Made by a program: the position numbers and the translations under genes. Source: a virus. Taken from it: a stretch of 64,000 nt of DNA. The stretch is from positions 1 through 64,000 of the IMG/VR virus record IMGVR_UViG_3300002835_000043. One strand, written 5' to 3'. Positions 6,864 to 38,858 of this stretch are shown one piece after another. Position 1 is the first letter of the stretch, and each line of letters starts with the position of its first letter. The notes under the pieces are model-generated. The model made no database searches, was not told where the DNA came from, and saw only the letters and a program-made list of their open reading frames with translations.

Positions 6864-6884
6864 AAATCCCGAATCATGGGTCTG

Positions 6885-6919
6885 CCCCACATATGCCTAA
6901 CCGTATATGTGGGGTTTTT
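6885..6919 (+). terminator. Strong terminator closing the GC-rich block
   Basis: CCCCACATAT (6885-6894) pairs with ATATGTGGGG (6905-6914), loop GCCTAACCGT, then TTTTT. The stem also contains a CATATG site (6890-6895), the hexamer repeated in the 4.9-5.3 kb control region. Confidence 0.85.
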
Positions 6920-9980: not shown

Positions 9981-10041
9981 TAAAAAGAAGAAGATGATGA
10001 ATTTTTAACTCAAAATCACATATTGTAAATATTAAACCCGC

Positions 10042-15080: not shown

Positions 15081-16139
15081 GTGAAGATTGAAGATGATGT
15101 AAAACTTGATTTTGCAGATGTTTTGATTCGTCCAAAGCGAAGTAACCTTGATAGTCGTAGCAAGGTTGATGTCGAACGCACATTTAAATTTAAACTACCC
15201 AGTGGTGAATTTGTATGGAGAGGTGTCCCTATTGTAGCCGCTAATATGGATACAGTTGGTACATTTGAAATGGCAAACTCTCTTGCAGATTACGGTGCTA
15301 TGTGTGCTATTCACAAGTATTACTCTGAAGAAGATTGGGGTCGTGAAGCAAGTTCATGGTTGAGAAAACATTCTGGTCTTTGTGGATTGATTTATACAAT
15401 GGGAATGGGAAACGATTCCACAACATTAACAGAAATTCAAAAAGCAGAAAAGATATTAAATGCACATAAGCATGTTCGGTTTATTTGTCTTGATGTTGCA
15501 AATGGATATACTGAAAAGTTTGTAAATTATGTTAAAACCATTCGTGGTTTATTTCCAGATCATGTTATTATTGCAGGTAATGTTGTTACCCGTGAGATGA
15601 CTGAAGCACTGATTCTTTCTGGTGCAAACATCATCAAGGCAGGAATTGGACCAGGATCTGTCTGCACCACTCGTAAGGTTGCTGGTGTGGGTTATCCTCA
15701 ACTCTCCTGCATCATGGAGTGTGCTGATGCAGCACATGGGCTTGGTGGTTATGTGCTATCAGATGGTGGTTGTACTTGTCCGGGTGATGTAGCAAAGGCA
15801 TTTGGTGCTGGTGCAGACTTTATTATGATTGGTGGTATGTTTGCAGGAACTGATGAGTCTGCAGGACAAGAAACAGAGAACGGTAAAGAGTTCTATGGTA
15901 TGTCATCTGCTACAGCAATGGAAAAACATTCCGGTGGTGTTGCTACTTATCGTGCAGCAGAGGGTAAGAAGGTATTTGTTAAAAAGACTGGACCAGTTGC
16001 AAATATTATGCAACAGATTCTTGGTGGTGTCCGTTCTGCTTGCACATATGTTGGTGCAGCAAGACTTAAGGATCTGTCAAAGTGTACAACTTTTATTCGT
16101 GTCAATCGTCAGTTAAATAACATATTTCAAGAAAATTAA
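15081..16139 (+). CDS. guaC: GMP reductase
   Basis: The 352-residue protein has the IMPDH/GMP reductase barrel. The active-site loop [13 protein letters not shown] (186-198, catalytic C195) followed by G-V-G-Y-P-Q is diagnostic of GMP reductase, and S-D-G-G-C (about 227) and I-G-G-M-F-A-G line the phosphate site. There is no CBS insertion, and length fits GuaC. It converts GMP and NADPH to IMP and ammonia. With the PurA-like enzyme at 16942 it forms a route from guanylate to adenylate. The start is GTG or ATG near 15081 with AAAGGAAAC upstream. Confidence 0.92.
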
Positions 16140-16197
16140 AATTTGAATATTTGCATTTGACCCTGAAAAAAAATCTTATAAAACTTTACTTTTTTCC

Positions 16198-16225
16198 TTG
16201 CGGAGTCCGATAAAAGTCGTATACT
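16198..16225 (+). promoter_or_regulatory. Sigma70-like promoter ahead of the tRNA region
   Basis: TTGCGG (16198-16203) and TATACT (16220-16225), 16-base spacer. TATACT lies in the palindrome CGTATACTATACG, which could be an operator. It precedes the structured leader and the first tRNAs. Confidence 0.65.
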
Positions 16226-16516
16226 ATACGAGTCAGAGAAAATAACAAAGGAAACACACTATGAAGCACTTTGATAATAATATTATGTGGTTACATTAAA
16301 ATTACTTTTATTGTTTATAGTATTATATTATTAAATAAGGTTTGTCGGTATGCACCGAGAGCAGATCCGAGCGAGACAGAAATGGTTTACGGAAAACCAC
16401 TGCAGTCTCTCGACTACAAAACCGTTTCACTGGTTGGTTTACGGTTCCTGATACGAAGGTGATGAATGCCCGTAAGGCAGTAGTAGTTACCGGATACAAC
16501 CAAAACCGTCTTTTAT
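16226..16516 (+). ncRNA. Candidate structured RNA leader before the tRNAs
   Basis: Only a 12-codon frame (16261-16299, after AAAGGAAACACACT) is plausible here. From 16345 to about 16505 the sequence is clearly richer in GC than its surroundings and folds: TCGGT/ACCGA (16345-16358); TGGTTT/AAACCA (16383-16399) enclosed by GAGAC/GTCTC; and GCC/GGC near 16469. GGTTTACGG and AAAACCG each occur twice. This may be a small RNA, a processed leader or a tRNA-processing signal. No known family recognised. Confidence 0.35.
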
Positions 16517-16589
16517 GCCCTCTTAGCTCAGTTGGTAGAGCAGTTGACTTTTAATCAATAGGTCGTAGGTTCAATTCCTACAGGGGGCA
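16517..16589 (+). tRNA. tRNA-Lys (UUU)
   Basis: Acceptor stem GCCCTCT/AGGGGGC, D arm TAGCTCAGTTGGTAGAGCA, anticodon loop CTTTTAA (anticodon TTT), T arm GTAGG-TTCAATT-CCTAC, discriminator A. CCA is not encoded (A followed by CTT). It reads AAA/AAG, abundant in the phage genes. Confidence 0.95.
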
Positions 16590-16594
16590 CTTTT

Positions 16595-16667
16595 GGGATG
16601 GTAGACCAACGGCAGAGTCGGGACACTCAAAATGTCCATAGTGTGGGTTCGAATCCCACCCGTCCTA
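16595..16667 (+). tRNA. tRNA-Leu (CAA), short variable loop
   Basis: Acceptor GGGATGG/CCGTCCT, anticodon stem GGACA/TGTCC, loop CTCAAAA (anticodon CAA), T arm GTGGG/CCCAC, discriminator A. The variable region is only about five bases (ATAGT), whereas bacterial leucine tRNAs normally have a long arm. CCA not encoded. Confidence 0.85.
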
Positions 16668-16682
16668 CTCAGGAGAATAATA

Positions 16683-16949
16683 ATGATTGACAATCCGTAT
16701 AATGAACTGAACGATCATACCTTTCTGATATATCTTGCACAGAATGATTACATGATTGATGGTCACTTTCTTCCTGAAGGCAAACGACTGATGGAGATTG
16801 CTAATAAATTACAGGAGAGAGCAATGTTTATTTTTGGTGACGGTAAATCTGAACCAATCATAGACTTCAAAGCAGAAAAATACAAGAAGTCTCAGGAAGC
16901 AATGGATAGACTCGCACAACTTGATGAGGAGTTGGGATTAAATGATTGA
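16683..16949 (+). CDS. Hypothetical helical protein (88 aa)
   Basis: ATG 16683 has AGGAGAATAATA directly upstream; the open frame extends back into the tRNA and is rejected. The product is acidic and mostly helical (FKAEKYKKSQEAMDRLAQLD), with a small N-terminal region rich in N and D. It overlaps the purA start by eight bases, so the two are co-translated; perhaps a small partner of that enzyme, but this is only context. Confidence 0.7.
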   Translation: MIDNPYNELNDHTFLIYLAQNDYMIDGHFLPEGKRLMEIANKLQERAMFIFGDGKSEPIIDFKAEKYKKSQEAMDRLAQLDEELGLND

Positions 16950-17934
16950 TTATGTAGATGTGATATATGGTTTAGCATGGGGCGATGAAGGCAAGGGAAA
17001 GATTTCTAATGCTCTTGCTCCAAAATATGATTATGTTTGTCGTTGGAACGGTGGACCAAATGCTGGTCACACTGTTTATGTAAATGGACAAAAATTTAAA
17101 ACTCATATTATTCCATCCGGTATCTTTGCAGGTAAGAAGTGTGTAATTGGACCGGGATGTGTAATTAACCCAGATAAATTCTTTGAAGAGATCCGTGGAC
17201 TTCGTGCAGCAGGATTTGATACTTCTCTTATCAAAATTCATCCAAATGCACATATTATCACCGAAGAACATATTGAGTGGGACAAGAAGAATCTTGGTCA
17301 CTTAGGAACAACTTCTCAAGGAATTGCTCCTTGCTATTCAGATAAGATGTTGCGTAGAGGTAGGAGAGCAAAGGAATATTTTATTTCGGAGTGGTTGTGG
17401 GATGGTGAACTATCAGGTAGAGTGCTTTGTGAAGGAGCACAAAGTGTTTGGCTTGATATTGATCATGGTGATTATCCATTCGTAACTAGTAGTTCAACAA
17501 TGCCATACTCTGCATGTTCTCTTGGTTTCTCTCCGAAGAAGATTCGCAGATTGATTGGTGTTGCAAAGGCATATGATACAAAGAGTGGTAAAGATCCACT
17601 CTTCCCCGAAACATTATGGAATGATCCCGTACTGAATCGAATTATTGAGGAGGGTCAAGAATTTGGTTCTACTACGGGTCGTAAACGATTGGTGAATTGG
17701 TTGAACCTTGATAAGTTGAAGAAGTCTATCGTCTTATCGGGTTGTACTGAACTCATCATAAATAAGTGTGATGTTCTCAAGAAGGTTGGAGAATTTAAGG
17801 TCATTCATGGAAATGAATACATGAATTGTACAAGTTTTGCTATGATGTCTGCTTATATTCAAGATACTTTAATGTTTAGTAGTGGTTCGGATTTACATGA
17901 AATTACTTTCTCTGGTGATAAGGAAAGTATTTGA
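16942..17934 (+). CDS. purA: Adenylosuccinate synthetase (PurA-like, short form)
   Basis: W-G-D-E-G-K-G-K (13-20) is the GTP-binding loop with catalytic D15, and N-A-G-H-T (40-44) supplies the catalytic His43; G-A-Q-S-V-W-L-D and T-T-G-R-K-R are also conserved. It joins IMP and aspartate using GTP, giving adenylosuccinate. At 330 residues it is about 100 shorter than typical bacterial PurA and is nearer the length of archaeal PurA and phage PurZ. PurZ enzymes, which make the 2-aminoadenine precursor, usually replace the catalytic Asp; here it is kept, favouring a PurA (or a PurZ0-like intermediate) role. Neighbouring guaC supplies IMP. Confidence 0.88.
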   Translation: MIDYVDVIYGLAWGDEGKGKISNALAPKYDYVCRWNGGPNAGHTVYVNGQKFKTHIIPSGIFAGKKCVIGPGCVINPDKFFEEIRGLRAAGFDTSLIKIHPNAHIITEEHIEWDKKNLGHLGTTSQGIAPCYSDKMLRRGRRAKEYFISEWLWDGELSGRVLCEGAQSVWLDIDHGDYPFVTSSSTMPYSACSLGFSPKKIRRLIGVAKAYDTKSGKDPLFPETLWNDPVLNRIIEEGQEFGSTTGRKRLVNWLNLDKLKKSIVLSGCTELIINKCDVLKKVGEFKVIHGNEYMNCTSFAMMSAYIQDTLMFSSGSDLHEITFSGDKESI

Positions 17935-17935
17935 T

Positions 17936-18006
17936 TCCTTTGTGGTGAAACGGTATCACAGGAGACTTTGGATCTCTTTTTCCTAGTTCGAATCTAGGCA
18001 AAGGAA
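17936..18006 (+). tRNA. tRNA-Gln (UUG)
   Basis: Acceptor TCCTTTG/CAAAGGA, D arm TGGTGAAACGGTATCACA, anticodon loop CTTTGGA (anticodon TTG), T arm CCTAG/CTAGG, discriminator A. It starts two bases after the purA stop. CCA not encoded. Confidence 0.95.
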
Positions 18007-18010
18007 TTAT

Positions 18011-18083
18011 TCTTGAATAGCTCAGTTGGTAGAGCAGTGAGCTGTTAACTCACGGGTCACTGGTTCGAGTCCAGTTTCAAGAG
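18011..18083 (+). tRNA. tRNA-Asn (GUU)
   Basis: Acceptor TCTTGAA/TTCAAGA, anticodon stem GTGAG/CTCAC with loop CTGTTAA (anticodon GTT), T arm ACTGG/CCAGT, discriminator G. CCA not encoded. Confidence 0.95.
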
Positions 18084-18086
18084 TTT

Positions 18087-18158
18087 GCCATGTTAGCACA
18101 GTGGTAGTGCAGTGCTTTTGTAAAGCACAGGTCATCGGTTCGAATCCGATACATGGCT
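18087..18158 (+). tRNA. tRNA-Thr (UGU)
   Basis: Acceptor GCCATGT/ACATGGC, anticodon stem GTGCT/AGCAC with loop TTTGTAA (anticodon TGT), T arm ATCGG/CCGAT, discriminator T. It reads ACA, a very common codon in the late genes. Confidence 0.95.
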
Positions 18159-18162
18159 TTGT

Positions 18163-18789
18163 ATGTTAAATATTAATATTCCACATTTTTATTGTTACAT
18201 GAGAAAAGAACAAATGTATCAACATAAAAATCATGTTGGTGAATTTGTAAAAGTTACTGTATTTGGAGCACAATCTAATCCAGATAGAGCATTACTTTTT
18301 CATGTGATGACTGATGATGGGTTAGTTAGAAGTAGAGTTCCAATTCATATGTTATGCCACAAAGAAAATGCTCCTAATATTCAATTAGATTATTTACAAT
18401 TATGGGATTGTTTTTCTATAAATTGCACAAATATTGTTTATGACTATTTAAAAGGTGCAAGAGCAAAAATAATTCTAAAAGATAAAAAAGAACTTTGGGG
18501 TAATTATATGATGACATTTGATTGGTATGATAATTCATATAGTGACGAACCAACACAATACAAATGTTTACATATGGTTGAATTGGATAATGGTTGTTAC
18601 GCTTTACAACCAAATAATAGAATATATTGGAAACATATGTCTTTTGTTACAAAACCATTTCCACAAAATCCTGATTATAAAGTTGATCATAAAAATTTTA
18701 GATGTGAAGGAACAAGTGATAGATGGATTATTGAAGGAGAAGATGACAGTTATTATTATGATTTGAAAGAGGATAAAGATGGGCGGTAA
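18163..18789 (+). CDS. Hypothetical protein, beta-rich (208 aa)
   Basis: ATG 18163 follows the tRNA-Thr almost directly and lacks a clear ribosome site; an internal start near residue 18 is possible. The product is aromatic-rich, with many W, Y and F in strand-like segments (VKVTVFGAQ, KCLHMVELDNGCYAL) and an acidic end. It resembles conserved proteins of unknown function in T4-like phages, but I cannot name a family. It overlaps the next small gene. Confidence 0.65.
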   Translation: MLNINIPHFYCYMRKEQMYQHKNHVGEFVKVTVFGAQSNPDRALLFHVMTDDGLVRSRVPIHMLCHKENAPNIQLDYLQLWDCFSINCTNIVYDYLKGARAKIILKDKKELWGNYMMTFDWYDNSYSDEPTQYKCLHMVELDNGCYALQPNNRIYWKHMSFVTKPFPQNPDYKVDHKNFRCEGTSDRWIIEGEDDSYYYDLKEDKDGR

Positions 18790-18958
18790 ACATTCAGCAG
18801 GTAAAGGTGATACATATAGACCCGTAGATTGGGAACAATATTCAAAAAATTGGGATGATATTTTTGGAAAAAAGAAAGGTAAATTAAAAAATGAGCAATG
18901 TACAACTAATCGGACTGGTAAGCGGAGAACAAATAATCGCAAAGATCGAACTAATTGA
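18779..18958 (+). CDS. Small conserved phage protein of GKGDxYRPV type (59 aa)
   Basis: ATG 18779 lies in the end of the previous gene. The N-terminal 38 residues (H-S-A-G-K-G-D-T-Y-R-P-V then D-W-E-Q-Y and N-W-D-D-I-F-G-K) match a short protein found widely in large phages, function unknown. Relatives usually end shortly after the F-G-K-K; here the frame continues for about 20 basic residues that overlap the next gene by 68 bases, so the true function may lie only in the first 40 residues. Confidence 0.65.
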   Translation: MGGKHSAGKGDTYRPVDWEQYSKNWDDIFGKKKGKLKNEQCTTNRTGKRRTNNRKDRTN

Positions 18959-19202
18959 AAATGTATATTCAATTAAAAATCCAGCAATTATTGTTCCAGT
19001 TGGTAAAGGAGAACTTGCATTAGCCCCTTGGTTGCCGTATACTACGGTAGATCAAACAGGAGTTACGATCAATAAGGAGCGTGTTCTTTTTGTTCTTACT
19101 CCACAACCAGAACTAGCAAATAATTACAATGAAAATTTTGGTAGTGGTCTAATCATTCCAGATAAGACAGTATCAGCACCAAAGTTGTCATTAGTTGAAT
19201 GA
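18891..19202 (+). CDS. Small beta-rich protein, possibly Sm-like (103 aa)
   Basis: Start ATG 18891 with AAATTAAAAA ahead. It shows S-G-E-Q-I-I-A-K-I-E-L-I-E-N-V-Y-S-I-K-N-P-A-I-I-V-P, then L-A-P-W-L-P-Y-T and a strand R-V-L-F-V-L-T. This pattern, early strands with G-E-x-I-x-A, resembles small Sm-like proteins reported from phages of the cyanophage type. Sm-like rings bind U- or A-rich RNA, which would fit a tRNA-rich region. Assignment is from pattern only. Confidence 0.6.
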   Translation: MSNVQLIGLVSGEQIIAKIELIENVYSIKNPAIIVPVGKGELALAPWLPYTTVDQTGVTINKERVLFVLTPQPELANNYNENFGSGLIIPDKTVSAPKLSLVE

Positions 19203-19208
19203 CATCAT

Positions 19209-19282
19209 GCGCTCGTAGCTCAGTTGGATAGAGCAGATGCCTTCTAAGCATCAGGTCGCAGGTTCGAATCTTGCCGAGCGCG
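19209..19282 (+). tRNA. tRNA-Arg (UCU)
   Basis: Acceptor GCGCTCG/CGAGCGC, anticodon stem GATGC/GCATC with loop CTTCTAA (anticodon TCT), T arm GCAGG/CTTGC, discriminator G. It reads AGA, by far the favoured arginine codon in the AT-rich genes. Confidence 0.95.
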
Positions 19283-19297
19283 TTTAAGGAGTTTATT

Positions 19298-19534
19298 ATG
19301 AATAGTATGGATATTGTTGAAAGACTTAAAGTTGATATTGAGATGTTAAGTATGAGTCCTGATGAAAAAGAGAGACTAATTTCAACTACATTAGAGATGG
19401 CTCTGAATGAAATTCAGCATCTTAGAAAGAAAAATTCAGATAGCGATTATCTTTCTTCATATTTTACTGAATGGCATGATAAAAAGAATGTTAAGAAAAA
19501 TACAATCACCAATATTGATGTTGGAGAGATTTGA
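19298..19534 (+). CDS. Hypothetical helical protein (78 aa)
   Basis: ATG 19298 has AAGGAGTTTATT upstream; the frame extends back into the tRNA and the longer form is rejected. Helical and amphipathic (IVERLKVDIEMLSMSPDEK, then LEMALNEIQHLRKK), it may form a dimeric coiled coil. The end is polar. Not recognised. Its stop is followed after two bases by the deaminase-fold gene. Confidence 0.65.
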   Translation: MNSMDIVERLKVDIEMLSMSPDEKERLISTTLEMALNEIQHLRKKNSDSDYLSSYFTEWHDKKNVKKNTITNIDVGEI

Positions 19535-19536
19535 TC

Positions 19537-19908
19537 ATGTCTGTTTTGGATGAATTAATTTCTGATGCATATCCAATTTGCTTGGAAATGAATCGTCAGA
19601 AGAAGCATGTTTCTTTTGTTCTTTATAAGAATCGTGTTGTTTCTGTTGGTAGAAATGTTTTTAAAACACATCCTCTTGCAAAAGAATATGGATATCAGTT
19701 TAATGAAATGCATTCTGAACTTGATGCATTCCGTAAAATTCCATATAATTTTCGTAGTAAGAAGTTGACTCTTGTAAATGTTAGGTATAATAAGTTTGGG
19801 AAACTACGAATGTCAAAACCATGTGAGCATTGTGCTCCTTGGTGTCAGGAAGTTTTTCATGAAATTTATTACACGACCGATGATGGTGTCGTGAGAATGG
19901 AGTACTAA
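19537..19908 (+). CDS. Cytidine/deoxycytidylate-deaminase-fold protein (123 aa)
   Basis: ATG 19537 is preferred to a start at 19531. Residues H59-S-E61 and P95-C96-x2-C99 form the zinc-binding and proton-relay motifs (H-x-E and P-C-x2-C) of the cytidine deaminase superfamily, with the usual 34-residue spacing. Additional C103 lies near. Members deaminate cytidine, dCMP, or adenosine 34 in tRNA (TadA). Its place among tRNA genes, and a tRNA-Ser with A34 at 25004, makes a tRNA role worth testing, but dCMP deaminase is the more usual phage enzyme. Substrate unknown. Confidence 0.8.
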   Translation: MSVLDELISDAYPICLEMNRQKKHVSFVLYKNRVVSVGRNVFKTHPLAKEYGYQFNEMHSELDAFRKIPYNFRSKKLTLVNVRYNKFGKLRMSKPCEHCAPWCQEVFHEIYYTTDDGVVRMEY

Positions 19909-20183
19909 TGTATCGTCTTCATATTGATATTCCAATCAATGCTTCAGAAGAGAAAGCACTTAAGATTTCTCAAGAAATTATTAATTTTGCATTTGATAAT
20001 TTTCAATCTCACGCACTTCTAATGTCTCATGATATTGAAAGTGTAAATTATCGTCTTGGAAATGATTATGATCGTCAGAAGTCTAATTATTTTTCAAAAA
20101 ATGAAAATGGTCATGTAAATAATAAGAAGAGCAAGATTGTTATCAAAACTTCTGAGAATTCTGTTGACTCTGACCAAGAATAA
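19908..20183 (+). CDS. Hypothetical protein (91 aa)
   Basis: The ATG overlaps the deaminase stop (TAATG). The first 55 residues look like a compact alpha/beta unit (RLHIDIPINASEEKALKIS), the remainder is disordered, rich in K, N and S. Proximity suggests co-expression with the deaminase. Not recognised. Confidence 0.6.
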   Translation: MYRLHIDIPINASEEKALKISQEIINFAFDNFQSHALLMSHDIESVNYRLGNDYDRQKSNYFSKNENGHVNNKKSKIVIKTSENSVDSDQE

Positions 20184-20199
20184 GTTATATTACTGATAT

Positions 20200-20271
20200 G
20201 GGATGCATGTGTCGGGTGGCACAGGGTCGCTTATAACGACCTACCGCAGAGTTCGAGTCTCTGGCATCCTA
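20200..20271 (+). tRNA. tRNA-Ile (UAU)
   Basis: Acceptor GGGATGC/GCATCCT (first pair G-U), anticodon stem GGTCG/CGACC with loop CTTATAA (anticodon TAT), T arm CAGAG/CTCTG, discriminator A. A tRNA reading AUA directly through U34 is uncommon in bacteria, which normally use a CAU anticodon with lysidine. CCA not encoded. Confidence 0.92.
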
Positions 20272-20274
20272 CTT

Positions 20275-20835
20275 ATGACAGAAACGCGAAACATTATTGA
20301 TCATTATCATTATTGGAAGCACGAAGCAATTCTTGCGGACCTAGATAAGCGTAGGCATAATTTTACTGTGCTTTGCAGTAATTTGTACAATGATTTTAAT
20401 ATTGCAACGGTGATCAGAAATGCGAATGCCTTTCTTGCAAAGGAGATCATTCTATATGGAAGCAAGCAATATGATAGGCGCGGCACCGTTGGTACTCATA
20501 ATTATAATCGTTTTGTTCATTGTAGGGATGAGCAACAACTCGGATTGAAAATTGAGAACATGATTCGTCAGCACGGTACACTTCGTATCGTTGGTATTGA
20601 TAATGTTCGAAATGCTCGTCCAATTGAAGATTATACTTGGCCAACTAATGAGCATGTCCTTATGGTTTTTGGTCAAGAACAAGTTGGAATTCCACAAGAA
20701 CTTCTTGACAGGTGTGATGATATTTTGTATATTACTCAGTATGGATCTGTTAGAAGTTTGAATGTTGGTTGTGCTTCATCCGTTGCAATGTATGATTATT
20801 GTCGCAAGGTTGAAGCAGGTGTTTTGGCCCCATAG
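20275..20835 (+). CDS. SpoU (TrmH/TrmL) family RNA 2'-O-methyltransferase (186 aa)
   Basis: ATG 20275 lies just after the tRNA-Ile; the open frame extends back into it. SpoU motifs are present: N42-x5-R48-N-A (motif 1), F-G-Q-E-Q-V-G-I-P-Q-E-L-L (132-144, motif 2) and S161-L-N-V-x2-A-S-x-A-M-Y-D-Y (motif 3), forming the trefoil-knot SAM site. The enzyme should methylate a ribose 2'-OH of tRNA or rRNA. TrmL acts on position 34 of tRNA-Leu CAA and UAA, and both of these are encoded by this phage, so a TrmL-like role is plausible. Its 3' end overlaps the tRNA-Glu by ten bases. Confidence 0.88.
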   Translation: MTETRNIIDHYHYWKHEAILADLDKRRHNFTVLCSNLYNDFNIATVIRNANAFLAKEIILYGSKQYDRRGTVGTHNYNRFVHCRDEQQLGLKIENMIRQHGTLRIVGIDNVRNARPIEDYTWPTNEHVLMVFGQEQVGIPQELLDRCDDILYITQYGSVRSLNVGCASSVAMYDYCRKVEAGVLAP

Positions 20836-20898
20836 ATTAACTGGCTAAATTCCCGCCCTTTCAAGGCGGTCATCCGGGTTCGAGTCCCGGTGGGGTCA
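20826..20898 (+). tRNA. tRNA-Glu (UUC)
   Basis: Acceptor GGCCCCA/TGGGGTC, anticodon stem CCGCC/GGCGG with loop CTTTCAA (anticodon TTC), T arm CCGGG/CCCGG, discriminator A. Its first ten bases are also the end of the SpoU coding region, including the stop codon. Confidence 0.95.
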
Positions 20899-20914
20899 CT
20901 TTAGGATTATAATT

Positions 20915-21376
20915 ATGGGATTTACATCTACATTTTTTGGTCAAGGTCAATTTCCATACACTACCTCATATGAAGGATCTACTTATGTCACACAGGCATA
21001 TACAAATCCTCCAGAATATAAATCTTCACTTTCCATGACTACACAGTTTTCAAATGCAATTAATGGGAATACGGTTGCCCTTGCAGAATATAATAGTACT
21101 TTGTTTACTGGAGAAGCAGTTGGTCTTTGGATTTATAGATTATATTTTGATGGTCAATTAGTTGGTATATATCAAATGTGTGATCAACAATTTTCATTCC
21201 CAGTGACATTTGATCGTGTTGAAGGGTTTTGTATGGGTGTGCCACTCACTCCTGCTATCCCATATCGTGGTACTCCTGAACCTGAGCCATCGCCACCGAT
21301 TCCATCACCAGCGTCTATTGCTATTTTGATTTGTTACACATTTTTTTCTCTACGAAAGAACCCTCGCAATGCATAA
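20915..21376 (+). CDS. Hypothetical protein with P-x-P / hydrophobic / basic C terminus (153 aa)
   Basis: Good ribosome spacing (TTAGGATTATAATT before ATG 20915). The body is aromatic, T/S/G-rich and strand-like, as in virion surface proteins. The end reads P-E-P-E-P-S-P-P-I-P-S-P-A-S, a hydrophobic stretch (IAILICYTFF) and L-R-K-N, which resembles a PEP-CTERM sorting signal. There is no N-terminal signal peptide, which PEP-CTERM proteins need, so surface anchoring is uncertain. It overlaps the next gene, which has a similar C terminus. Confidence 0.65.
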   Translation: MGFTSTFFGQGQFPYTTSYEGSTYVTQAYTNPPEYKSSLSMTTQFSNAINGNTVALAEYNSTLFTGEAVGLWIYRLYFDGQLVGIYQMCDQQFSFPVTFDRVEGFCMGVPLTPAIPYRGTPEPEPSPPIPSPASIAILICYTFFSLRKNPRNA

Positions 21377-21902
21377 TTCATTACTAGTCTCTACCGTGCT
21401 TACTCTTGCCGCAACGAATGTTTCACAAGCCGCGTTAGTTTCGATTTCACAAATTGTGACCAACAACACCTTGACCACTCAAACTTATGATTTTTCGGCT
21501 TGGAGTGGAATGGGTTCCTCAACGACCCCTGCCTATATGCGAGGTTCAATTAGTATTACTCTTAGTGATTTTAATCGTGATGGTGCAATGCTTTCCTCGG
21601 ACGGTCTTTACCTTGCACAAGTTAACTCGGTGTTAGTGAAAACTATGCCTAATACTCCGTTTACTCTGACTGCTCCTGCTCGCAGTGGTAATTCATATAC
21701 CAATAGTTTTGGTTGGGAATATCTTACAAGTTCACTCTCATCGTCTGATTCTATTGAATTGCGATTGAATTTCCGTTTAACTCCTGGTGATCAGGTCGCT
21801 ATCGCAGGAACTTTTGAAGTTGCTTCTGTCCCTGCACCTTCATCTTTTATGTTGATTGGATGTGCAGGAATTGCTGCACTGTTTGGAAAAAGAAATAAAT
21901 GA
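21369..21902 (+). CDS. Secreted protein with PEP-CTERM-like sorting signal (177 aa)
   Basis: Residues 1-21 form a signal peptide (LLVSTVLTLAATNVSQA). The body is a Thr/Ser-rich beta domain as in many PEP-CTERM proteins. The C terminus V-P-A-P-S-S-F-M-L-I-G-C-A-G-I-A-A-L-F-G then K-R-N-K has the P-x-P-S-S, glycine-rich hydrophobic helix and basic end of exosortase substrates. In bacteria this is cut and the protein is anchored or released. In a phage it suggests cargo made for the host envelope, or a gene taken from the host. It overlaps the methyltransferase start. Confidence 0.75.
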   Translation: MHNSLLVSTVLTLAATNVSQAALVSISQIVTNNTLTTQTYDFSAWSGMGSSTTPAYMRGSISITLSDFNRDGAMLSSDGLYLAQVNSVLVKTMPNTPFTLTAPARSGNSYTNSFGWEYLTSSLSSSDSIELRLNFRLTPGDQVAIAGTFEVASVPAPSSFMLIGCAGIAALFGKRNK

Positions 21903-22993
21903 AAGTAGGATCACTATTTGCAGGTATTGGTGGTTTTGATCTCGGTTTTGAACGAGCAGGATTTGAACTTGCTTGGTCAGTCGAAATTGATCCACATTGT
22001 AGAAAAGTTCTACAAAAGCATTTTCCAAATGCTAAAATTTATTCAGATATCAAGCAAGTAAAGGTTGAAGAACTTGAAAAGGTTGATATCATCTGTGGTG
22101 GATTTCCTTGTCAGGATTTATCGGTAGCAGGTAAGCGTAAAGGTCTTGCTGGAGAAAGGTCAGGATTATTTTATGAAGCAATGCGACTTGTACGGGGAAT
22201 CAATCCCCAGTTCGTCATACTCGAAAATGTGCCAGGATTGTTGTCGAGCAATAAAGGAAGGGATTTCGCAGTCCTCCTCGCTGAAATGGACAAAGGGTGG
22301 GATTGTCAGGAAATCGCATGGAGAGTTCTTGACAGCCAATTCTTCGGAGTGCCCCAACGACGCAAGCGCATCTTTATTGTCGCAAGTTCTCGAATCGGGG
22401 GTGCCGAGCAAGTATTGGCTCTCTCCGAAAGCATGTCAGGGGATTCTACGAAGAGCAAAGACAAGAGGAAAGAACTTACCTCCAGTATTGGAGGAAACAT
22501 TGAAGAGACAAAGTGGTGGGATGGTGGACAACTCTCAGACACCTTAACATCTTCAAGTTTATTTCGTCAACAAGCAGAACCGGATAAGCGTAGAATGTCT
22601 GCAGTATTGGAGCCTATTCCTTACGATTTATTCCAGATTACAGCACCTATCAATAAGCAAACAAGAGTACCGGGTGATCCGTGTCACACTCTTGCTGCTT
22701 CTAATGCAGTTCATGCTGCTATGGTAATGGCAGTTCGTACAGCACAAACAGGAGCAAATGGTCATGGTGTTGCAGAAGAAGTTTCTCACACATTAGATCT
22801 TGCAAATGGTCAAGCAGTTGCTTATAATCTAACAATTCGAAGATTAACACCTTTGGAATGTGAGAGACTACAGGGATTTCCTGATAATTGGACTGATGGA
22901 CAAGCAGATACTACAAGATATAAGCAACTAGGAAATGCAGTTACCGTGAATGTAATTGAATGGTTAGCAAATAATCTGAAAGGAATAATATGA
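21899..22993 (+). CDS. DNA (cytosine-5) methyltransferase (364 aa)
   Basis: All key C5-MTase motifs appear in order: F-A-G-I-G-G-F-D-L-G-F (7-17, motif I), G-G-F-P-C-Q (67-72, catalytic C71), E109-N-V (motif VI), Q-R-R-K-R-I-F (motif VIII), and G-N-A-V near residue 346 (motif X). It transfers methyl from SAM to C5 of cytosine. The target-recognition region spans about 190-300 and its specificity cannot be read. No restriction endonuclease is beside it, so it probably protects phage DNA from host restriction. ATGA overlap with the previous gene. Confidence 0.93.
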   Translation: MKVGSLFAGIGGFDLGFERAGFELAWSVEIDPHCRKVLQKHFPNAKIYSDIKQVKVEELEKVDIICGGFPCQDLSVAGKRKGLAGERSGLFYEAMRLVRGINPQFVILENVPGLLSSNKGRDFAVLLAEMDKGWDCQEIAWRVLDSQFFGVPQRRKRIFIVASSRIGGAEQVLALSESMSGDSTKSKDKRKELTSSIGGNIEETKWWDGGQLSDTLTSSSLFRQQAEPDKRRMSAVLEPIPYDLFQITAPINKQTRVPGDPCHTLAASNAVHAAMVMAVRTAQTGANGHGVAEEVSHTLDLANGQAVAYNLTIRRLTPLECERLQGFPDNWTDGQADTTRYKQLGNAVTVNVIEWLANNLKGII

Positions 22994-23289
22994 GTGGTAA
23001 AGTAATTTGGAACTATAGAATTATTATGGATGATACTACAGAAGATCCACATGATGCTTGGTATGCTATTCATGAAGTATATTATCTTGATGGGGAACCA
23101 ATTGATCATACCGTAAGTCAGTCAAGTGTTTATGGTGATAGTATTGAAGAGTTGAATAAGTCTCTAGTAAAGATGCGAGAAGCATTCAATCACCCTATCT
23201 TGAAGAAGTCTGATTTTCCACCAATGGATAACTATCGTCGTGAACACTGGATGAAAGCAAGAGAAATGGGAGAATCTTATGAAGGATAA
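22990..23289 (+). CDS. Hypothetical protein (99 aa)
   Basis: ATG overlaps the methyltransferase stop. The first half has W-N-Y-R-I-I-M-D and A-W-Y-A-I-H-E-V-Y-Y-L-D-G, strands of a small alpha/beta fold that occurs in conserved phage proteins of unknown role; the second half is helical with K/E/M residues. Overlaps the next gene by 11 bases. Confidence 0.65.
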   Translation: MSGKVIWNYRIIMDDTTEDPHDAWYAIHEVYYLDGEPIDHTVSQSSVYGDSIEELNKSLVKMREAFNHPILKKSDFPPMDNYRREHWMKAREMGESYEG

Positions 23290-23605
23290 ATTTGAACCAG
23301 ATGCATTTGTTCGTAAGATCATTCTAGATGATCATGAAATTGAAAGTTTGCAAAAAACACTTTATTTTCTAAAGGGTGTCGAACTTGCAACACCAAATTC
23401 ACAATATATGCACAGTGTTATTTCAGAAGTAATTGAGAGTGTTGATTATGTTGTTAGACAGTATTGGAATGCACCAATCGCAACTGAGCAAGATTTTAAA
23501 GATCGAAAAGCACGATATGAAGAACTTGATCTAATTCCAACAGATGAACTTCTGCGTGCTACTCGTCAGTATATGAACAGAATGAAGAAAGGAAAAAACA
23601 AATGA
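23279..23605 (+). CDS. Hypothetical helical protein (108 aa)
   Basis: Start within the end of the previous gene. The product is largely helical (HEIESLQKTLYFLKGVELA, SEVIESVDYVVRQYW) and ends in a basic segment (NRMKKGKNK). The stop overlaps the following ATG (ATGA). Not recognised. Confidence 0.65.
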   Translation: MKDKFEPDAFVRKIILDDHEIESLQKTLYFLKGVELATPNSQYMHSVISEVIESVDYVVRQYWNAPIATEQDFKDRKARYEELDLIPTDELLRATRQYMNRMKKGKNK

Positions 23606-23766
23606 TCGATAAGAAGCATGAACTCCGTCGTAGACGCAAGCGTAAGTATGAATCTCGCCGTCGTAGAAAGCAAGAGCAACTTCTAAATGCAAAGAAGGAA
23701 ACTCTTCGTAAGTTGGATGCTATTGGTCGTTGTCCTGCTTGGATCAAGGCTGAGAAGGGTATTTGA
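23602..23766 (+). CDS. Small, extremely basic protein (54 aa)
   Basis: Starts in the stop of the upstream gene. About 23 of the first 40 residues are K or R (for example LRRRRKRKYESRRRRKQEQ), and the end has C-P-A-W-I-K. The charge implies RNA or DNA binding; in size and composition it recalls ribosomal proteins of the bS21 type, found in some phages, but the match is not firm. It precedes tRNA-Cys by six bases. Confidence 0.6.
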   Translation: MIDKKHELRRRRKRKYESRRRRKQEQLLNAKKETLRKLDAIGRCPAWIKAEKGI

Positions 23767-23772
23767 TTTACT

Positions 23773-23846
23773 GGTCGGGTACTCAAGTGGCTTAAGAGAA
23801 CGGATTGCAAATCCGTGATTCGTGGGTTCAAATCCCACCTCGACCT
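23773..23846 (+). tRNA. tRNA-Cys (GCA)
   Basis: Acceptor GGTCGGG/CTCGACC, anticodon stem ACGGA/TCCGT with loop TTGCAAA (anticodon GCA), T arm GTGGG/CCCAC, discriminator T. CCA not encoded. Confidence 0.93.
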
Positions 23847-23849
23847 TGC

Positions 23850-23920
23850 GCGTGTATGATGTAGTGGTAACATATTAGATTTCCAATCTTATCTCGTGAG
23901 TTCGAATCTCACTACACGCT
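23850..23920 (+). tRNA. tRNA-Gly (UCC)
   Basis: Acceptor GCGTGTA/TACACGC, loop TTTCCAA (anticodon TCC) on a stem with one mismatch, T arm GTGAG/CTCAC, discriminator T. The D arm TGATGTAGTGGTAACATA is typical of glycine tRNAs. Confidence 0.92.
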
Positions 23921-23921
23921 T

Positions 23922-23929
23922 TATAAATA
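23922..23929 (+). promoter_or_regulatory. TATAAATA box between tRNA-Gly and tmRNA
   Basis: Exact T4 late consensus placed one base after tRNA-Gly and directly ahead of the tmRNA acceptor piece. It may give the tmRNA its own late transcription, or be part of the spacer in an AT-rich genome. Confidence 0.5.
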
Positions 23930-24195
23930 ATCTTTGATATCGTTGATCTTCAATGAAAGACAATCAGGACAGGGGTTCGATTCCCCTCGGCTCCACTTGA
24001 CGGGGCTGTACAGGTATTCGACTGGTGTTTAGTAAGGAAAAGGGAGATATTCGGGACAGGCAACGAGTCTCGTTAAAAAATAGTTGTAAACAATAATTGC
24101 TAACGAACTAGCAATGGCTGCTTGAAGCAGTGGGGAATGATTCACCCGCATCTGAACGAATCACGATTTGCAGTCAGAAATGATTGCAAATCATT
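23930..24195 (+). ncRNA. ssrA: Circularly permuted (two-piece) tmRNA
   Basis: The acceptor piece comes first: P2 strand AAAGACAATCAG (23956-23967), T arm AGGGG-TTCGATT-CCCCT (23971-23987), acceptor strand CGGCTCC (23988-23994) and discriminator A. After only six bases the coding piece begins with GGGGCTG (24002-24008), which pairs with that acceptor strand, then the conserved GGTATTCGAC and CTGGTGTTT (24022-24030), which pairs with the P2 strand. A reading frame at 24099-24125 gives A-N-E-L-A-M-A-A and TGA, like a proteolysis tag. A hairpin (24165-24192) probably ends it. tmRNA frees stalled ribosomes with SmpB. Outer ends are approximate. Confidence 0.88.
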
Positions 24196-24207
24196 TTGGA
24201 GGACTTT

Positions 24208-24363
24208 ATGAATAATGAACAATTACTTGCAATGTGTGATGAATTAAAAAATATTAGAGCAAATATTGCTCATCAACTTTCAAGAATTTCTGCAATTGAA
24301 AGAGTAGTAACAGATATTCTTTCTCCAAAGGAAGAAGTAAAAAATGAAGAACCTCAAAATTAA
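24208..24363 (+). CDS. Small coiled-coil protein (51 aa)
   Basis: ATG 24208 follows TTTTGGAGGACTTT, a strong ribosome site just after the tmRNA. The product (residues 4-40) is one amphipathic helix with heptads (LLAMCDELKNIRANIAHQL) and an acidic end. It overlaps the lipoprotein gene by 20 bases. Unknown function. Confidence 0.65.
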   Translation: MNNEQLLAMCDELKNIRANIAHQLSRISAIERVVTDILSPKEEVKNEEPQN

Positions 24364-24640
24364 ATTTTGCATTTTAATGTTTTGTTTACTTTCTGGTTGT
24401 ACTCTAAAGAGAGTTTACTATCCTGCTTATGTTGTTGGTTATGACATGTATGGAAATCCAATTTATTATTATGATTATTATTATGTTAATTTGGATGATC
24501 CTAATAGTGCAAAAAATGCACAGCCATATATTATTCAACAGCCACCAGTTCAACAAATTGTAGTTCAACAAACACCACAACAAACTCAACAGACTGAAAA
24601 GAATAGTGGTAAATCTTGGGATTGTAATTGCAATCATTGA
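24344..24640 (+). CDS. Lipoprotein, tyrosine- and glutamine-rich (98 aa)
   Basis: Residues 1-19 are a type II signal peptide with lipobox L-L-S-G-C (cysteine 19), so the mature protein should be lipid-anchored in the host membrane. Then come a Tyr-rich segment (about residues 24-50), a Q/T-rich low-complexity stretch and a short end with two cysteines. Phage lipoproteins often block superinfection or act in lysis (Rz1). The absence of a companion Rz-like gene on the same stretch weighs against Rz1. Confidence 0.8.
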   Translation: MKNLKIKFCILMFCLLSGCTLKRVYYPAYVVGYDMYGNPIYYYDYYYVNLDDPNSAKNAQPYIIQQPPVQQIVVQQTPQQTQQTEKNSGKSWDCNCNH

Positions 24641-24665
24641 AGTTTATGGTATAGTACTAATACAT

Positions 24666-24739
24666 GGGACGGTAGACCAATCGGCAGAGTCAATAGACTT
24701 AAAATCTGTGTAGTGTGGGTTCGAGTCCCACCCGTCCTA
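24666..24739 (+). tRNA. tRNA-Leu (UAA), short variable loop
   Basis: Acceptor GGGACGG/CCGTCCT, loop CTTAAAA (anticodon TAA), T arm GTGGG/CCCAC, discriminator A. The overall sequence is close to the tRNA-Leu (CAA) at 16595, and again the variable region is short (GTAGT). It reads UUA, the main leucine codon of the late genes. Confidence 0.88.
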
Positions 24740-24763
24740 CTTAACTAAATAGATTACTGTACT

Positions 24764-24836
24764 GGGCAAATAGCTCAATTGGGAGAGCGTCGCCTTTGCA
24801 AGGCGAATGTTGCGGGTTCGAGTCCCACTTTGTCCA
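24764..24836 (+). tRNA. tRNA-Ala (UGC)
   Basis: Acceptor GGGCAAA/TTTGTCC, anticodon stem TCGCC/GGCGA with loop TTTGCAA (anticodon TGC), discriminator A. The T stem has one C-A mismatch (GCGGG/CCCAC). Confidence 0.92.
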
Positions 24837-24841
24837 CTCTT

Positions 24842-24914
24842 GGTCCCTTAACTCAACGGCTAGAGTGTTACCTTTACACGGTAAAAGTTGTAGGTTCGAA
24901 TCCTACAGGGATCA
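24842..24914 (+). tRNA. tRNA-Val (UAC)
   Basis: Acceptor GGTCCCT/AGGGATC, anticodon stem TTACC/GGTAA with loop TTTACAC (anticodon TAC), T arm GTAGG/CCTAC, discriminator A. Confidence 0.95.
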
Positions 24915-24918
24915 CTTC

Positions 24919-25000
24919 GCGTCGATACCAAAGCGGCAACTGGGACAGACTGTAAATCTGTTGTCTTTAGACTCCGTAGGTTCGAGTCCTACTCGGCGCA
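24919..25000 (+). tRNA. tRNA-Tyr (GUA)
   Basis: Acceptor GCGTCGA/TCGGCGC, anticodon stem ACAGA/TCTGT with loop CTGTAAA (anticodon GTA), an enlarged variable arm (TGTCTTTAGACTCC) as expected for tyrosine, T arm GTAGG/CCTAC, discriminator A. Confidence 0.95.
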
Positions 25001-25003
25001 CTT

Positions 25004-25088
25004 GGACAGATGGCAGAGTGGTCTATTGCAGCAGTTTACTAAACTGCAGAGGTGAATGCCTCCGAGGGTTCGAATCCTTCTCTGTCCG
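25004..25088 (+). tRNA. tRNA-Ser, anticodon ACU
   Basis: Acceptor GGACAGA/TCTGTCC, anticodon stem GCAGT/ACTGC with loop TTACTAA, which places A-C-T at 34-36. Long variable arm (GAGG/GCCTC hairpin) and discriminator G fit serine. Bacteria normally use GCU for AGC/AGU; A34 here is unusual. Alignment with the neighbouring tRNA-Ser (UGA) supports the reading. Confidence 0.85.
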
Positions 25089-25094
25089 CATTTT

Positions 25095-25182
25095 GGGTAG
25101 GTGGCAGAGTGGTCTAACGCGGTTGTCTTGAAAACAACAGTAGGTGAATAGCCTACCGGGGGTTCGAATCCCTCTCTACCCT
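25095..25182 (+). tRNA. tRNA-Ser (UGA)
   Basis: Acceptor GGGTAGG/TCTACCC, anticodon stem GTTGT/ACAAC with loop CTTGAAA (anticodon TGA), long variable arm (GTAGG/CCTAC type), discriminator T. Confidence 0.93.
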
Positions 25183-25199
25183 TTCACTAGATACTTCAT

Positions 25200-25273
25200 C
25201 GGGGTGTGGCTCAGCTTGGTAGAGCGTCTGCTTTGGGAGCAGAAAGTCGTAGGTTCAAATCCTATCACCCCGA
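25200..25273 (+). tRNA. tRNA-Pro (UGG)
   Basis: Acceptor CGGGGTG/CACCCCG, anticodon stem TCTGC/GCAGA with loop TTTGGGA (anticodon TGG), T arm GTAGG/CCTAT, discriminator A followed by CTT. Confidence 0.95.
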
Positions 25274-25300
25274 CTTATACATACACAAAACGGAGGAAAT

Positions 25301-28888: not shown

Positions 28889-29833
28889 ATGTCAGACAAA
28901 TACTTTCCAGCAAATACATGTGTTTTAGCGTGTTCGGGACCATCTCTGAACACAATTGATCCTTTTAGTTTGGGATTACCTGTTGTTGCAGTTAGTACAG
29001 CAATAAGAAAAATAACAAAACCACATTTTTGGATTATTGCTGACTATTTAAATGAGATGCATGGAATAGAAGGATCACATGCTTATTCTGATCCAGATAT
29101 AATAAAAGTTTTACCAGAAGGCAAAGTATCAAGTGGAGCAAATGCTCAAAGTGTTGTTTTGTGTAATTATGACACAAATACTCGTTGGCCAGATGTAGAG
29201 TCTGTTTTATTTAATGGTGCACAACCATTTATAAGAGGACCACATAAATCCGTAACATTTGCCATCCAATGGTTACATTATATTGGTGTAAAAAATGTAA
29301 TTTGGGTTGGTAATGATTTAAAAGCAAATAGTATGAAAGAGAAATATTGTTACGAGGTTCAAGAGTTTGATATGAAGAAGGCTTATAATTATGATAAGAC
29401 TTTGGATCAAACAGCAGATGCACTCAGACAATGGCACCCAATAGCATTAAAAAGAGGATTCAAATGGTTTTCTTGGAATTGTGGTGAAGTTTTTGAATCA
29501 TTTGTTCCAAAATTTGACCTGAATTGGTGGGAAAGCGAGGGGAAAGAGCAACTAAGACAGTATGCTCCAATTACCTTTCCAACAGTAGATATTCCAGCAT
29601 ATCAACCTACTCCCAAAATAGAAAAACCAGTACAAAAAAATGAAATACAAGTTTTAAGAAAACAACACCAACAACCACAACAACCATCACAGAAAAAAGA
29701 ACAACCAAAACCTTTCAATAAAGATGCGTATTTAACATCACCATATACTCCAAACATGACTGGTAATCATTCACGAAGAGAAATTAGAAAAAATGAAATG
29801 AATGTGAAAAAACAATTACGAGCACCAAAATGA
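28889..29833 (+). CDS. Glycan-cluster protein with GPSLN motif (DUF115-like)
   Basis: The N terminus V-L-A-C-S-G-P-S-L-N (11-20) and W-I-I-A-D near residue 50 resemble the nucleotide-binding part of the 6-HMPPK-like/DUF115 (MAF) family, which acts in surface sugar or sialic acid transfer. A second conserved part, V-I-W-V-G-N-D, follows at about 140. The last 80 residues are P/Q/K-rich and disordered. It opens a run of coupled glycan genes; exact activity unknown. Confidence 0.65.
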   Translation: MSDKYFPANTCVLACSGPSLNTIDPFSLGLPVVAVSTAIRKITKPHFWIIADYLNEMHGIEGSHAYSDPDIIKVLPEGKVSSGANAQSVVLCNYDTNTRWPDVESVLFNGAQPFIRGPHKSVTFAIQWLHYIGVKNVIWVGNDLKANSMKEKYCYEVQEFDMKKAYNYDKTLDQTADALRQWHPIALKRGFKWFSWNCGEVFESFVPKFDLNWWESEGKEQLRQYAPITFPTVDIPAYQPTPKIEKPVQKNEIQVLRKQHQQPQQPSQKKEQPKPFNKDAYLTSPYTPNMTGNHSRREIRKNEMNVKKQLRAPK

Positions 29834-30450
29834 ATGAGTTTAAAATTATAAGTTTTTATACAGATAATGGAATCTATGCTGATATGGCAAAAAGATTAAA
29901 AGATTCCTGCAAAAAATTCAGTATAGAATGCGATATAGAAAAGTATAAAGACAGAGGTTCCTGGGTTGATAATTGTAATATAAAACCAGAATTTATATTA
30001 AAAAAATTAAATGAAGATGTCGATTGTGTTATATGGGTGGACTCTGATGCAAAAATAATGAGTTACCCATATTTGTTTTTAGACACGCCTATGGATTTTG
30101 GTGTTCGTGGAGAACCGGGAGCAAGAAAGAAAACTCCTGTTGGAAGAGAAGAAATAGAACTTCCAAAAAATTGGCCAGTTCAAACAGAACTGATGTGGTT
30201 TAATTCTGGTACTATGCTGTTTCGTAAATGTAAAAGTACAATAAGAATGGTTGAGAGATGGTTGGAACTATCTAAATCAATGACAAGATCATGGGATCAA
30301 TGGAGTTTACAGCAAGCGTGGGCAGATGTACAACCAACTACTGAATGGTTTCCACGAACTTATTGTCAGATAGATAGATTACACGGAAGAGACAAAGCAG
30401 TGGTTTTACATGATTTAGCATCAGTAATGCAGAGAGTGGATAGAAAATGA
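29830..30450 (+). CDS. Glycosyltransferase, GT-A type (206 aa)
   Basis: The C-V-I-W-V-D-S-D-A segment (about residues 65-73) carries a D-x-D metal/nucleotide-sugar motif after an N-terminal Rossmann-like half. F-N-S-G-T-M-L-F is typical of the acceptor side of such enzymes. Closest in the window is 31418 (S-W-V-x-N-C, V-I-W-V-D-S-D vs V-L-W-I-D-A-D), so the two are paralogues. It overlaps neighbours by four bases on both sides. Donor and acceptor unknown. Confidence 0.75.
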   Translation: MNEFKIISFYTDNGIYADMAKRLKDSCKKFSIECDIEKYKDRGSWVDNCNIKPEFILKKLNEDVDCVIWVDSDAKIMSYPYLFLDTPMDFGVRGEPGARKKTPVGREEIELPKNWPVQTELMWFNSGTMLFRKCKSTIRMVERWLELSKSMTRSWDQWSLQQAWADVQPTTEWFPRTYCQIDRLHGRDKAVVLHDLASVMQRVDRK

Positions 30451-31421
30451 AAACAGCATTAATAATTGGAGCGAATGGTCAAGACGCATCTTATCTTGCA
30501 GAATTTTTATTAGATAAAAATTATAAAGTTCATGGAACGATTCGTAGAAATTCTGTTCCGGAATCACAAACAACCAGAATACAACACTTACATGATGAAA
30601 ATAAAATAACATTACATTACATGGATTTGATAGATCCTATAAGTGTTGATTCTATAATAAAGCAAACACAACCAGATGAAATATATCATCTTGGTGCTCA
30701 ATCACATGTTCAAGTTTCTTTTGATTTACCAAAATATACACTAGATGTTAATTCTGGTGGAACTTTAGCAGTTTTAGAGGCTGTTAGAAGATTCTCTCCT
30801 CATTCAAAAGTATATCATGCAGGTACATCAGAAATGTTTGGTAATTCTTGTGACTCTGATGGGTTTCAAAGAGAAACAACACCAATGGTTCCAGTGAGTC
30901 CATATGGTTGTGCAAAATTATATGCACATACTCTTTGTAGAAACTATAGACAAGCATATAACATGTTCGTCTGTTCTGGGATATTGTTTAACCATGAGTC
31001 CCCAAGAAGAGGAATAAATTTCGTAACTAATAAAACCGTATTAGAAGCCGTTAAAATAAAATTAGGATTATCGGATAAACTTGTTCTTGGTAATCTAGAA
31101 GCAAAAAGAGATTGGGGTCATGCAAAAGATTATGTAGAAGCAATGTGGTTGATGCTTCAACAAGAAACACCAAAAGATTTTGTTGTTGCAACTGGTGAAA
31201 CTAGATCAGTTAAAGAAATGATCGAATATGTTTTTTCAAAATTAGAATTGGATCCTTGGAAATATATTAAAACTGATAAAAAGTATTTAAGACCAGAGGA
31301 ATTAAATTATCTAAGAGGTGATTCTACAAACATAAGACAAGTTTTAAATTGGAAACCAAAATATACTTTTGAACAAATGATGGATGAAATGATTAATTAT
31401 TGGCTGAATGAATTACAATGA
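30447..31421 (+). CDS. gmd: GDP-mannose 4,6-dehydratase
   Basis: Short-chain dehydrogenase fold with G-A-N-G-Q-D-A (8-14) for NADP, catalytic T127/S128/E129 and Y153-x3-K157 (S-P-Y-G-C-A-K), and R-R-G at 185-188 as in Gmd. Length 324 is slightly under the bacterial 345-370. It makes GDP-4-keto-6-deoxymannose, the precursor of GDP-fucose, GDP-rhamnose and GDP-perosamine. The second enzyme (GDP-fucose synthase) is not found in this window, but two fucosyltransferase-like genes are. Confidence 0.93.
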   Translation: MKTALIIGANGQDASYLAEFLLDKNYKVHGTIRRNSVPESQTTRIQHLHDENKITLHYMDLIDPISVDSIIKQTQPDEIYHLGAQSHVQVSFDLPKYTLDVNSGGTLAVLEAVRRFSPHSKVYHAGTSEMFGNSCDSDGFQRETTPMVPVSPYGCAKLYAHTLCRNYRQAYNMFVCSGILFNHESPRRGINFVTNKTVLEAVKIKLGLSDKLVLGNLEAKRDWGHAKDYVEAMWLMLQQETPKDFVVATGETRSVKEMIEYVFSKLELDPWKYIKTDKKYLRPEELNYLRGDSTNIRQVLNWKPKYTFEQMMDEMINYWLNELQ

Positions 31422-32044
31422 AATATCCTATAACTATAACATTTTATACACCTGAATATAAAGAAGAAGCAAGAAAATTAGAAGAAACTTGTAAATTATT
31501 TAATTTACCTTTTTATTCATATGAAAAACCAAGTAAAGGTTCTTGGGTTCATAATTGTACAATGAAAGCAGAAGTAATTCAGGATGCTTTGTATTTACAC
31601 AAGCACCCTGTTTTGTGGATAGATGCTGATGGCAGATATAAATCACATCCAAATATATTTGATTCAAATGAATTGTATGAATGTGATTTTGGTGCTTATT
31701 TTATTCCTGATGTTTGGAATCAACCAAGAAATGTACATTTAAGACCTTGGGGATTTGATAGAGGTAACGAAGCATTAGCAGGCGGCACTATGTTTTTTAA
31801 TTATACAGATAAGTGTTTTAATTTAATAGATGATTGGAAAAAAGAAAGTCAAGCAAATCCAACAAGATGGGAACAACAAAGTCTTCAAAAAGTTTGGGAT
31901 AAATACGATAGAGATGGTTTAAAAACATACTTCTTCAATCAAGCGTATTGCAAAGTATTTGATTGTAAATGGTTTGAAGAACCGAAAGAAATAGTTGTAG
32001 AACATACACAAGCAAGTAGACGGTTAAAAGGAAATATAAGATGA
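31418..32044 (+). CDS. Glycosyltransferase, paralogue of 29830 (208 aa)
   Basis: It has G-S-W-V-H-N-C and V-L-W-I-D-A-D-G (about residues 68-75), the latter a D-x-D motif, followed by A-G-G-T-M-F-F-N. The arrangement copies that of the gene at 29830. Overlaps the gmd stop (ATGA) and the next start. Substrate unknown; likely part of the same glycan pathway. Confidence 0.75.
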   Translation: MKYPITITFYTPEYKEEARKLEETCKLFNLPFYSYEKPSKGSWVHNCTMKAEVIQDALYLHKHPVLWIDADGRYKSHPNIFDSNELYECDFGAYFIPDVWNQPRNVHLRPWGFDRGNEALAGGTMFFNYTDKCFNLIDDWKKESQANPTRWEQQSLQKVWDKYDRDGLKTYFFNQAYCKVFDCKWFEEPKEIVVEHTQASRRLKGNIR

Positions 32045-33556: not shown

Positions 33557-33557
33557 T

Positions 33558-35050: not shown

Positions 35051-35058
35051 GGATATTT

Positions 35059-36560: not shown

Positions 36561-36567
36561 AAAAATT

Positions 36568-38855: not shown

Positions 38856-38858
38856 CAA

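Follow-up and report, generated by a model that had tools for sequence, protein, structure and literature searches.

Two overlapping genes of an uncultured phage encode proteins with C-terminal tails that are probably of the PEP-CTERM type, lacking the usual glutamate. Judged from the sequence, one of the two proteins would be exported, cut by an exosortase of the host, and sent to the cell surface. The case for a tail exploiting a host exosortase is good for this protein, which starts at position 21369 and carries a signal peptide (gene B), and open for the protein starting at 20915 (gene A). The analyzed DNA, referred to as the window, comprises the first 64,000 bases of the IMG/VR record IMGVR_UViG_3300002835_000043, which has 118,301 bases in total. 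Positions are those of the window unless another record is named, and the coordinates of the genes A, B, and 9210, of their parts, and of the neighboring methyltransferase gene refer to the + strand.

Phage and locus

The baseplate wedge protein of the phage was 32–35% identical to its counterparts in Pelagibacter, Methylophilales, and cyanobacterial phages, and the phage was on these grounds assigned as an uncultured T4-like tailed phage. Genes A and B sit within a tRNA-rich region, with a tRNA-Glu gene (ending at 20899) directly upstream. In total, 17 tRNA genes and a tmRNA gene (tag ANELAMAA) were clustered at 16517–25274. A gene for a DNA cytosine-5 methyltransferase (21899–22993; PF00145, 254 bits) adjoins gene B, and such a methyltransferase also adjoins the locus in L003 as well as in three single-gene records (L006, L007, and L008).

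Architecture of the tails

Gene B (21369–21902, 177 aa) encodes a signal peptide, a body, and a PEP-CTERM-like tail. The Sec-type signal peptide covers residues 1–21 (21369–21431) and is kept in L009; it reads MHNSLLVSTVLTLAATNVSQA, with the predicted cleavage before A (best 12-mer hydropathy 2.02, residue 5). The tail (21828–21899) is composed of the motif VPAPSS (21828–21845), the hydrophobic stretch FMLIGCAGIAALF (21846–21884), and the basic end GKRNK (21885–21899), followed by the stop codon. Gene A (20915–21376, 153 aa) encodes a body of ~120 residues, a Pro/Glu-rich linker, and a tail (21299–21373) with the same order of parts: IPSPAS (21299–21316), IAILICYTFFSL (21317–21352), and RKNPRNA (21353–21373), again followed by the stop codon. 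The end of A and the start of B overlap by 8 nt (21369–21376), likewise in L009. The elements that the original prediction had assigned to these two proteins, including their overlap, were thus all present in the sequence. Signal peptides were judged by hydropathy and a cleavage-site rule, and by these neither gene A nor its relatives checked had a signal peptide or a hydrophobic N-terminus.

The layout common to the tails of A and B is V/I-P-x-P-A/S-S, 12–13 hydrophobic residues, and a basic end. The near-invariant Glu of Pro-Glu-Pro is missing, the motif being PSP in A and PAP in B and most relatives. The hydrophobic stretch and the basic cluster at the protein end were present in A, B, and every complete relative. 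A strict tripartite rule (PxP, 11–18 uncharged hydrophobic residues, basic end) picked exactly A and B among the 290 ORFs (≥60 aa) of the 118-kb record; shuffling the last 36 residues of the ORFs gave an expectation of ~0.01, a value to be read as a guide because the rule was composed with the tails in view.

A third protein (9210–9980, 256 aa), to which the same kind of end had been ascribed, was a weak candidate and an incomplete case. It has an internal hydrophobic segment near residues 76–90, and its C-terminus, IPSPGAFMLLSIASFL and stop, is without a basic end. An in-frame T_TTT_TTA heptamer (9971–9977) lies just before the stop codon, and the −1 reading from it (9971–9997) ends in LIIKRRR and a stop. 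Across 748 ORFs from four phages, no other had such a heptamer with a basic end in the −1 frame. Either a one-base error in the six-T run or frameshifting would complete the tail of the 9210 protein. As no relatives of this protein were found to decide on its end, it was not counted as a case. The proposed layout therefore holds for the 21369 and 20915 tails, but not for the 9210 end.

Profile scores

Profile searches gave a divided answer. The B protein of the window, matching in its tail, scored 14.8 bits with PF07589 (cut-off 20.7) and 13 bits with TIGR02595 (cut-off 16), and the A protein of the window gave no match to either of these PEP-CTERM models. A orthologues in four contigs (G406, G407, G409, and G410), however, scored 18.5–20 bits with TIGR02595, above its cut-off of 16, and the whole proteins of L023, L024, and L025 scored 16.3–17.8 bits. 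We consider the sub-threshold scores in the window to be outweighed, because the orthologues exceed the TIGR02595 cut-off. No A orthologue attained the PF07589 cut-off, though most A relatives matched at the C-end. When PF07589 was run against whole phage records, this C-end was the sole match in six records (E 9e-4 to 3e-5), and two records gave no match. In hhalign comparisons with cellular FxDxF PEP-CTERM proteins, the B family aligned over residues 141–176 only, that is, over the tail (E 1.2e-5, 81%), whereas the B body alone gave 0.6% and no homology.

Relatives and selection

The A family was found in IMG/VR at 12 viral loci, 55–100% identical, and all complete members keep the tail; a wider scan with an 11-member alignment recovered these 12 contigs and no others. 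The tail columns P130, P132, A133, and S134 were invariant across 11 A relatives. The tail VPAPASLTLIVAAGIAALFRKRKK occurs in L024 and L026 (slight variants in L023 and L025), VPAPASVVVLLCAALVGLRRKR in L022, and VPAPASFMLIACAGIAALFGKRNK and close forms in L006, L007, L008, and L021. The most distant tails were 19–27% identical and still shared P-x-P-A-S, which argues that the motif itself, and not hydrophobicity alone, is held. Between the L007/L008 and L024 tails, pS was 0.82–0.93 and pN 0.14–0.18; dN/dS of the A body was mostly 0.04–0.21. The A-family tail is under purifying selection.

In L004, the A/B locus has been lost by deletion, both genes being reduced to a fragment, so the two genes are dispensable. 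In the remnant (L004 5040–5151), the first A codons run out of frame into the last part of the tail DNA, and the same methyltransferase gene follows.

Relatives of the B body were found in phage contigs alone among the collections searched: B gave two weak fragments against 398 Pseudomonadota genomes, no credible relative in the plasmid search, and no match in a B-family scan of the genome collection. Named phages had no relative of A or B, and a PDB sequence search gave nothing credible for the two families. Structure prediction returned poor models for both (pLDDT 45 and 37).

Exchange of tails at the motif codons

Four records (L006, L007, L008, and L021) have a single gene, in which the A body is fused directly to what is the B tail in the window. 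Relative to L007, a block of ~550 bp in the window (21277–21827, left edge approximate) is missing from the single-gene relatives; it contains the present tail of A as well as the signal peptide and body of B. The right edge of the block falls exactly at the V-P-A-P codons (GTN-CCT-GCA-CCT, window vs. L007), and the DNA of the B tail is 93% identical to the gene A tail in L007. The comparison of L009 (two genes) with L022 (one gene) gave the same right edge at the motif, with other tails. Either an insertion into single-gene ancestors or a deletion from two-gene ancestors could account for the ~550 bp change, and with both the edge is at the motif. The alignments show that tails have moved between the A body, which has no signal peptide, and the B body, which has one. 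Whichever the change was, the ORFs that it left all end in a complete tail, in keeping with a modular signal.

Over the two-gene block, the window phage and the phage of L009 (contig G001) share 73% identity, the blastn match covering 20909–21844. In G001, the block is at a different genome position, and the flanking genes are without detectable DNA similarity. The retention and exchange of the tag among related phages suggest that the phage borrows the sorting enzyme of its host.

Exosortase genomes and host

Seven of these phage records were searched for an exosortase, and none was found. A profile built solely from ten phage tails was searched against 398 Pseudomonadota genomes, a sample drawn around E. 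coli and confined to this phylum; 81 of these genomes had an exosortase match (20% background). Fifty matches were inspected, 30 being the loci returned and 20 hand-picked for long coverage. Six matches ended an ORF of 80 aa or more, and all five genomes carrying them had an exosortase (binomial p 3.5e-4), a result to be read with the few matches overall, with hand-picking that ignored exosortase status though the list of exosortase genomes was already in hand, and with a C-end rule whose limits on ORF length and columns were altered between the first and second pass. The remaining matches tracked the background (10/44 in exosortase genomes). The best cellular match (L043) was PVPAPASFVLLALGLVGLRFIKK, ending a signal-peptide protein in an exosortase genome, and VPLPAS tails were also seen on cellular proteins in exosortase genomes (L067 and L081); Glu-less tails therefore do occur in exosortase bacteria. 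If the tails are recognized as proposed, the hosts of these phages should carry an exosortase.

The window phage encodes a GMP reductase, scoring above the NF003470 cut-off, near a relative of adenylosuccinate synthetase (15081–17934). The latter has 330 aa and is nearer to PurA, scoring 284 bits against 102 bits for PurZ; L024 likewise carries the two genes. As a host marker, the GMP reductase was rejected: it was 50–63% identical to proteins of 29 genomes, and since just two of these (G242 and G393) are in the exosortase list, it is uninformative on the host. A genome-collection scan with the phage GMP reductase gave no match.

Proposed function and alternative explanations

In the favored explanation, B would leave the cytoplasm by Sec, and its tail would hold it in the inner membrane so that the P-x-P motif faces the periplasm. 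The host exosortase would then recognize the motif and cut B, which would end up on the surface of the infected cell or in its exopolysaccharide layer. At this site, B would probably change adsorption, for example by excluding a second phage, or the aggregation of the infected cell. Sec export, membrane arrest, recognition by exosortase, and outward transfer follow the route proposed earlier for PEP-CTERM proteins (PMC1569441). For A, the body might cross the membrane by N-tail insertion or another route; alternatively, A would stay cytoplasmic, anchored by its tail, the tail being used differently. The wider proposal is that lytic phages carry exosortase substrates of their own, a signal-less family included, shuffle the tail module at the motif codons in such a way that a new body always retains or acquires a full tag, and use the sorting enzyme of the host to decorate the infected cell at its surface or matrix; we advance it tentatively, rating its chances as slightly below even.

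The original prediction that these proteins are exosortase substrates is favored by the orthologue scores, the tail-only hhalign match, conservation, and the genome test, but A has no signal peptide and the 9210 case is incomplete. The absent signal peptide of A is a real problem for the PEP-CTERM explanation and the main reason why our confidence goes no further than probable. The explanation is also weakened by the sub-cut-off scores in the window, the missing Glu, the absence of a phage exosortase, and the loss in L004. The main rival explanation posits plain C-terminal membrane anchors without exosortase processing, with A being a cytoplasmic tail-anchored protein and B a periplasmic one held at the inner membrane. 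In its favor, bacteria have tail-anchored proteins with a basic end (ElaB/YqjD type), A lacks a signal peptide, and the window scores are below the PEP-CTERM cut-offs. A plain anchor, however, needs no fixed P-x-P-A-S, yet this motif stays in tails that have diverged to 19–27% identity; moreover, the C-ends resembling phage tails fall in exosortase genomes, and four orthologous records exceed the TIGR02595 cut-off. We therefore regard plain anchoring as rather unlikely.

Processing by another sorting system, such as MYXO-CTERM, GlyGly-CTERM/rhombosortase, or an unnamed one, was suggested by the isolated L024-type tail, which reached 16.2 bits with TIGR03382 (cut-off 15.85). Whole proteins scored 12.2–12.4 bits with this model, below 15.85, and TIGR02595 scored higher on the same tails, both isolated (20.9) and in whole proteins (16.3–17.8). 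No GlyGly-CTERM model was among the matches, and the phage tails lack the cysteine that is invariant in the MYXO-CTERM motif (PMC11980579), which makes such processing very improbable. That the hydrophobic, basic C-ends are functionless products of chance is scarcely credible: each window profile match is weak alone, but the shuffling expectation is 0.01 (as a guide), and the tail is conserved in 12 loci and under purifying selection.

Relation to known systems

Exosortase sorting has been described in cellular genomes and is linked to exopolysaccharide and floc formation. The phage tails resemble PEP-CTERM signals (TIGR02595, PF07589; exosortase EpsH/XrtA, PF09721) in the succession of parts and their lengths (a motif, 12–14 hydrophobic residues, and a basic end at the extreme C-terminus), in the signal peptide on B, and in the passing of TIGR02595 by A orthologues. 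They differ in having P-A-P or P-S-P instead of P-E-P, in being phage-encoded with one or two per genome rather than many, in the A family without a signal peptide, and in the lack of an exosortase in the same genome. In PEP-CTERM proteins, Pro-Glu-Pro is near-invariant and a signal peptide is present in ~97% of members (PMC1569441). The L009 B protein gave a weak long match to the FxDxF PEP-CTERM model (NF038126, E 0.03); the likeness to this group is in the hhalign tail match, whereas the B body is without homology to it.

Phage-encoded envelope proteins for superinfection exclusion include T5 Llp and T4 Imm and Sp. P22 SieA is another of this kind (PMC10883804). Like these, A and B are proposed to be phage proteins sent to the host envelope; unlike them, with their lipoprotein signals or membrane segments, A and B have a sortase-type tail.

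In a literature search covering few subscription journals, no report of PEP-CTERM tails on phage proteins was found. The tail type is known; what is new, as far as seen, is that a lytic phage uses it, that one family carries it without a signal peptide, and that tails are exchanged at the motif. If true, this would be the first case, within the literature searched, of a lytic phage reaching the host surface via the exosortase route. It would also provide a natural set of exchangeable Glu-less tails for the study of exosortase recognition, and it would help to narrow down which hosts these uncultured phages infect.

Other genes of the phage record

Besides B, two proteins with envelope-type features were noted. 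One (10125–10862) has a signal peptide, ends in LGLGINF, and by eye resembles an outer-membrane beta-barrel; it has a DNA relative in G001 (70%) and none in named phages. The other (24344–24640) is a short, Tyr-rich, lipoprotein-like protein with the lipobox LSGC (by eye), which is also found in L006 and L008. Several envelope-directed products thus seem to be present. A metallophosphoesterase resembling LpxH is encoded a little upstream of gene A in L006 (7058–7831), L007 (7058–7831), and L021 (4929–5702), and is absent from the corresponding place in the window phage.

G+C content was 53% at positions 1–7000 and 33% in the remaining record; since the short ORFs of this region have relatives in G001 and G406, a foreign contig end is improbable. 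At 28889–40270, a long run of genes resembling glycosyltransferases and sugar-nucleotide enzymes was seen by eye, with G+C down to 24%.
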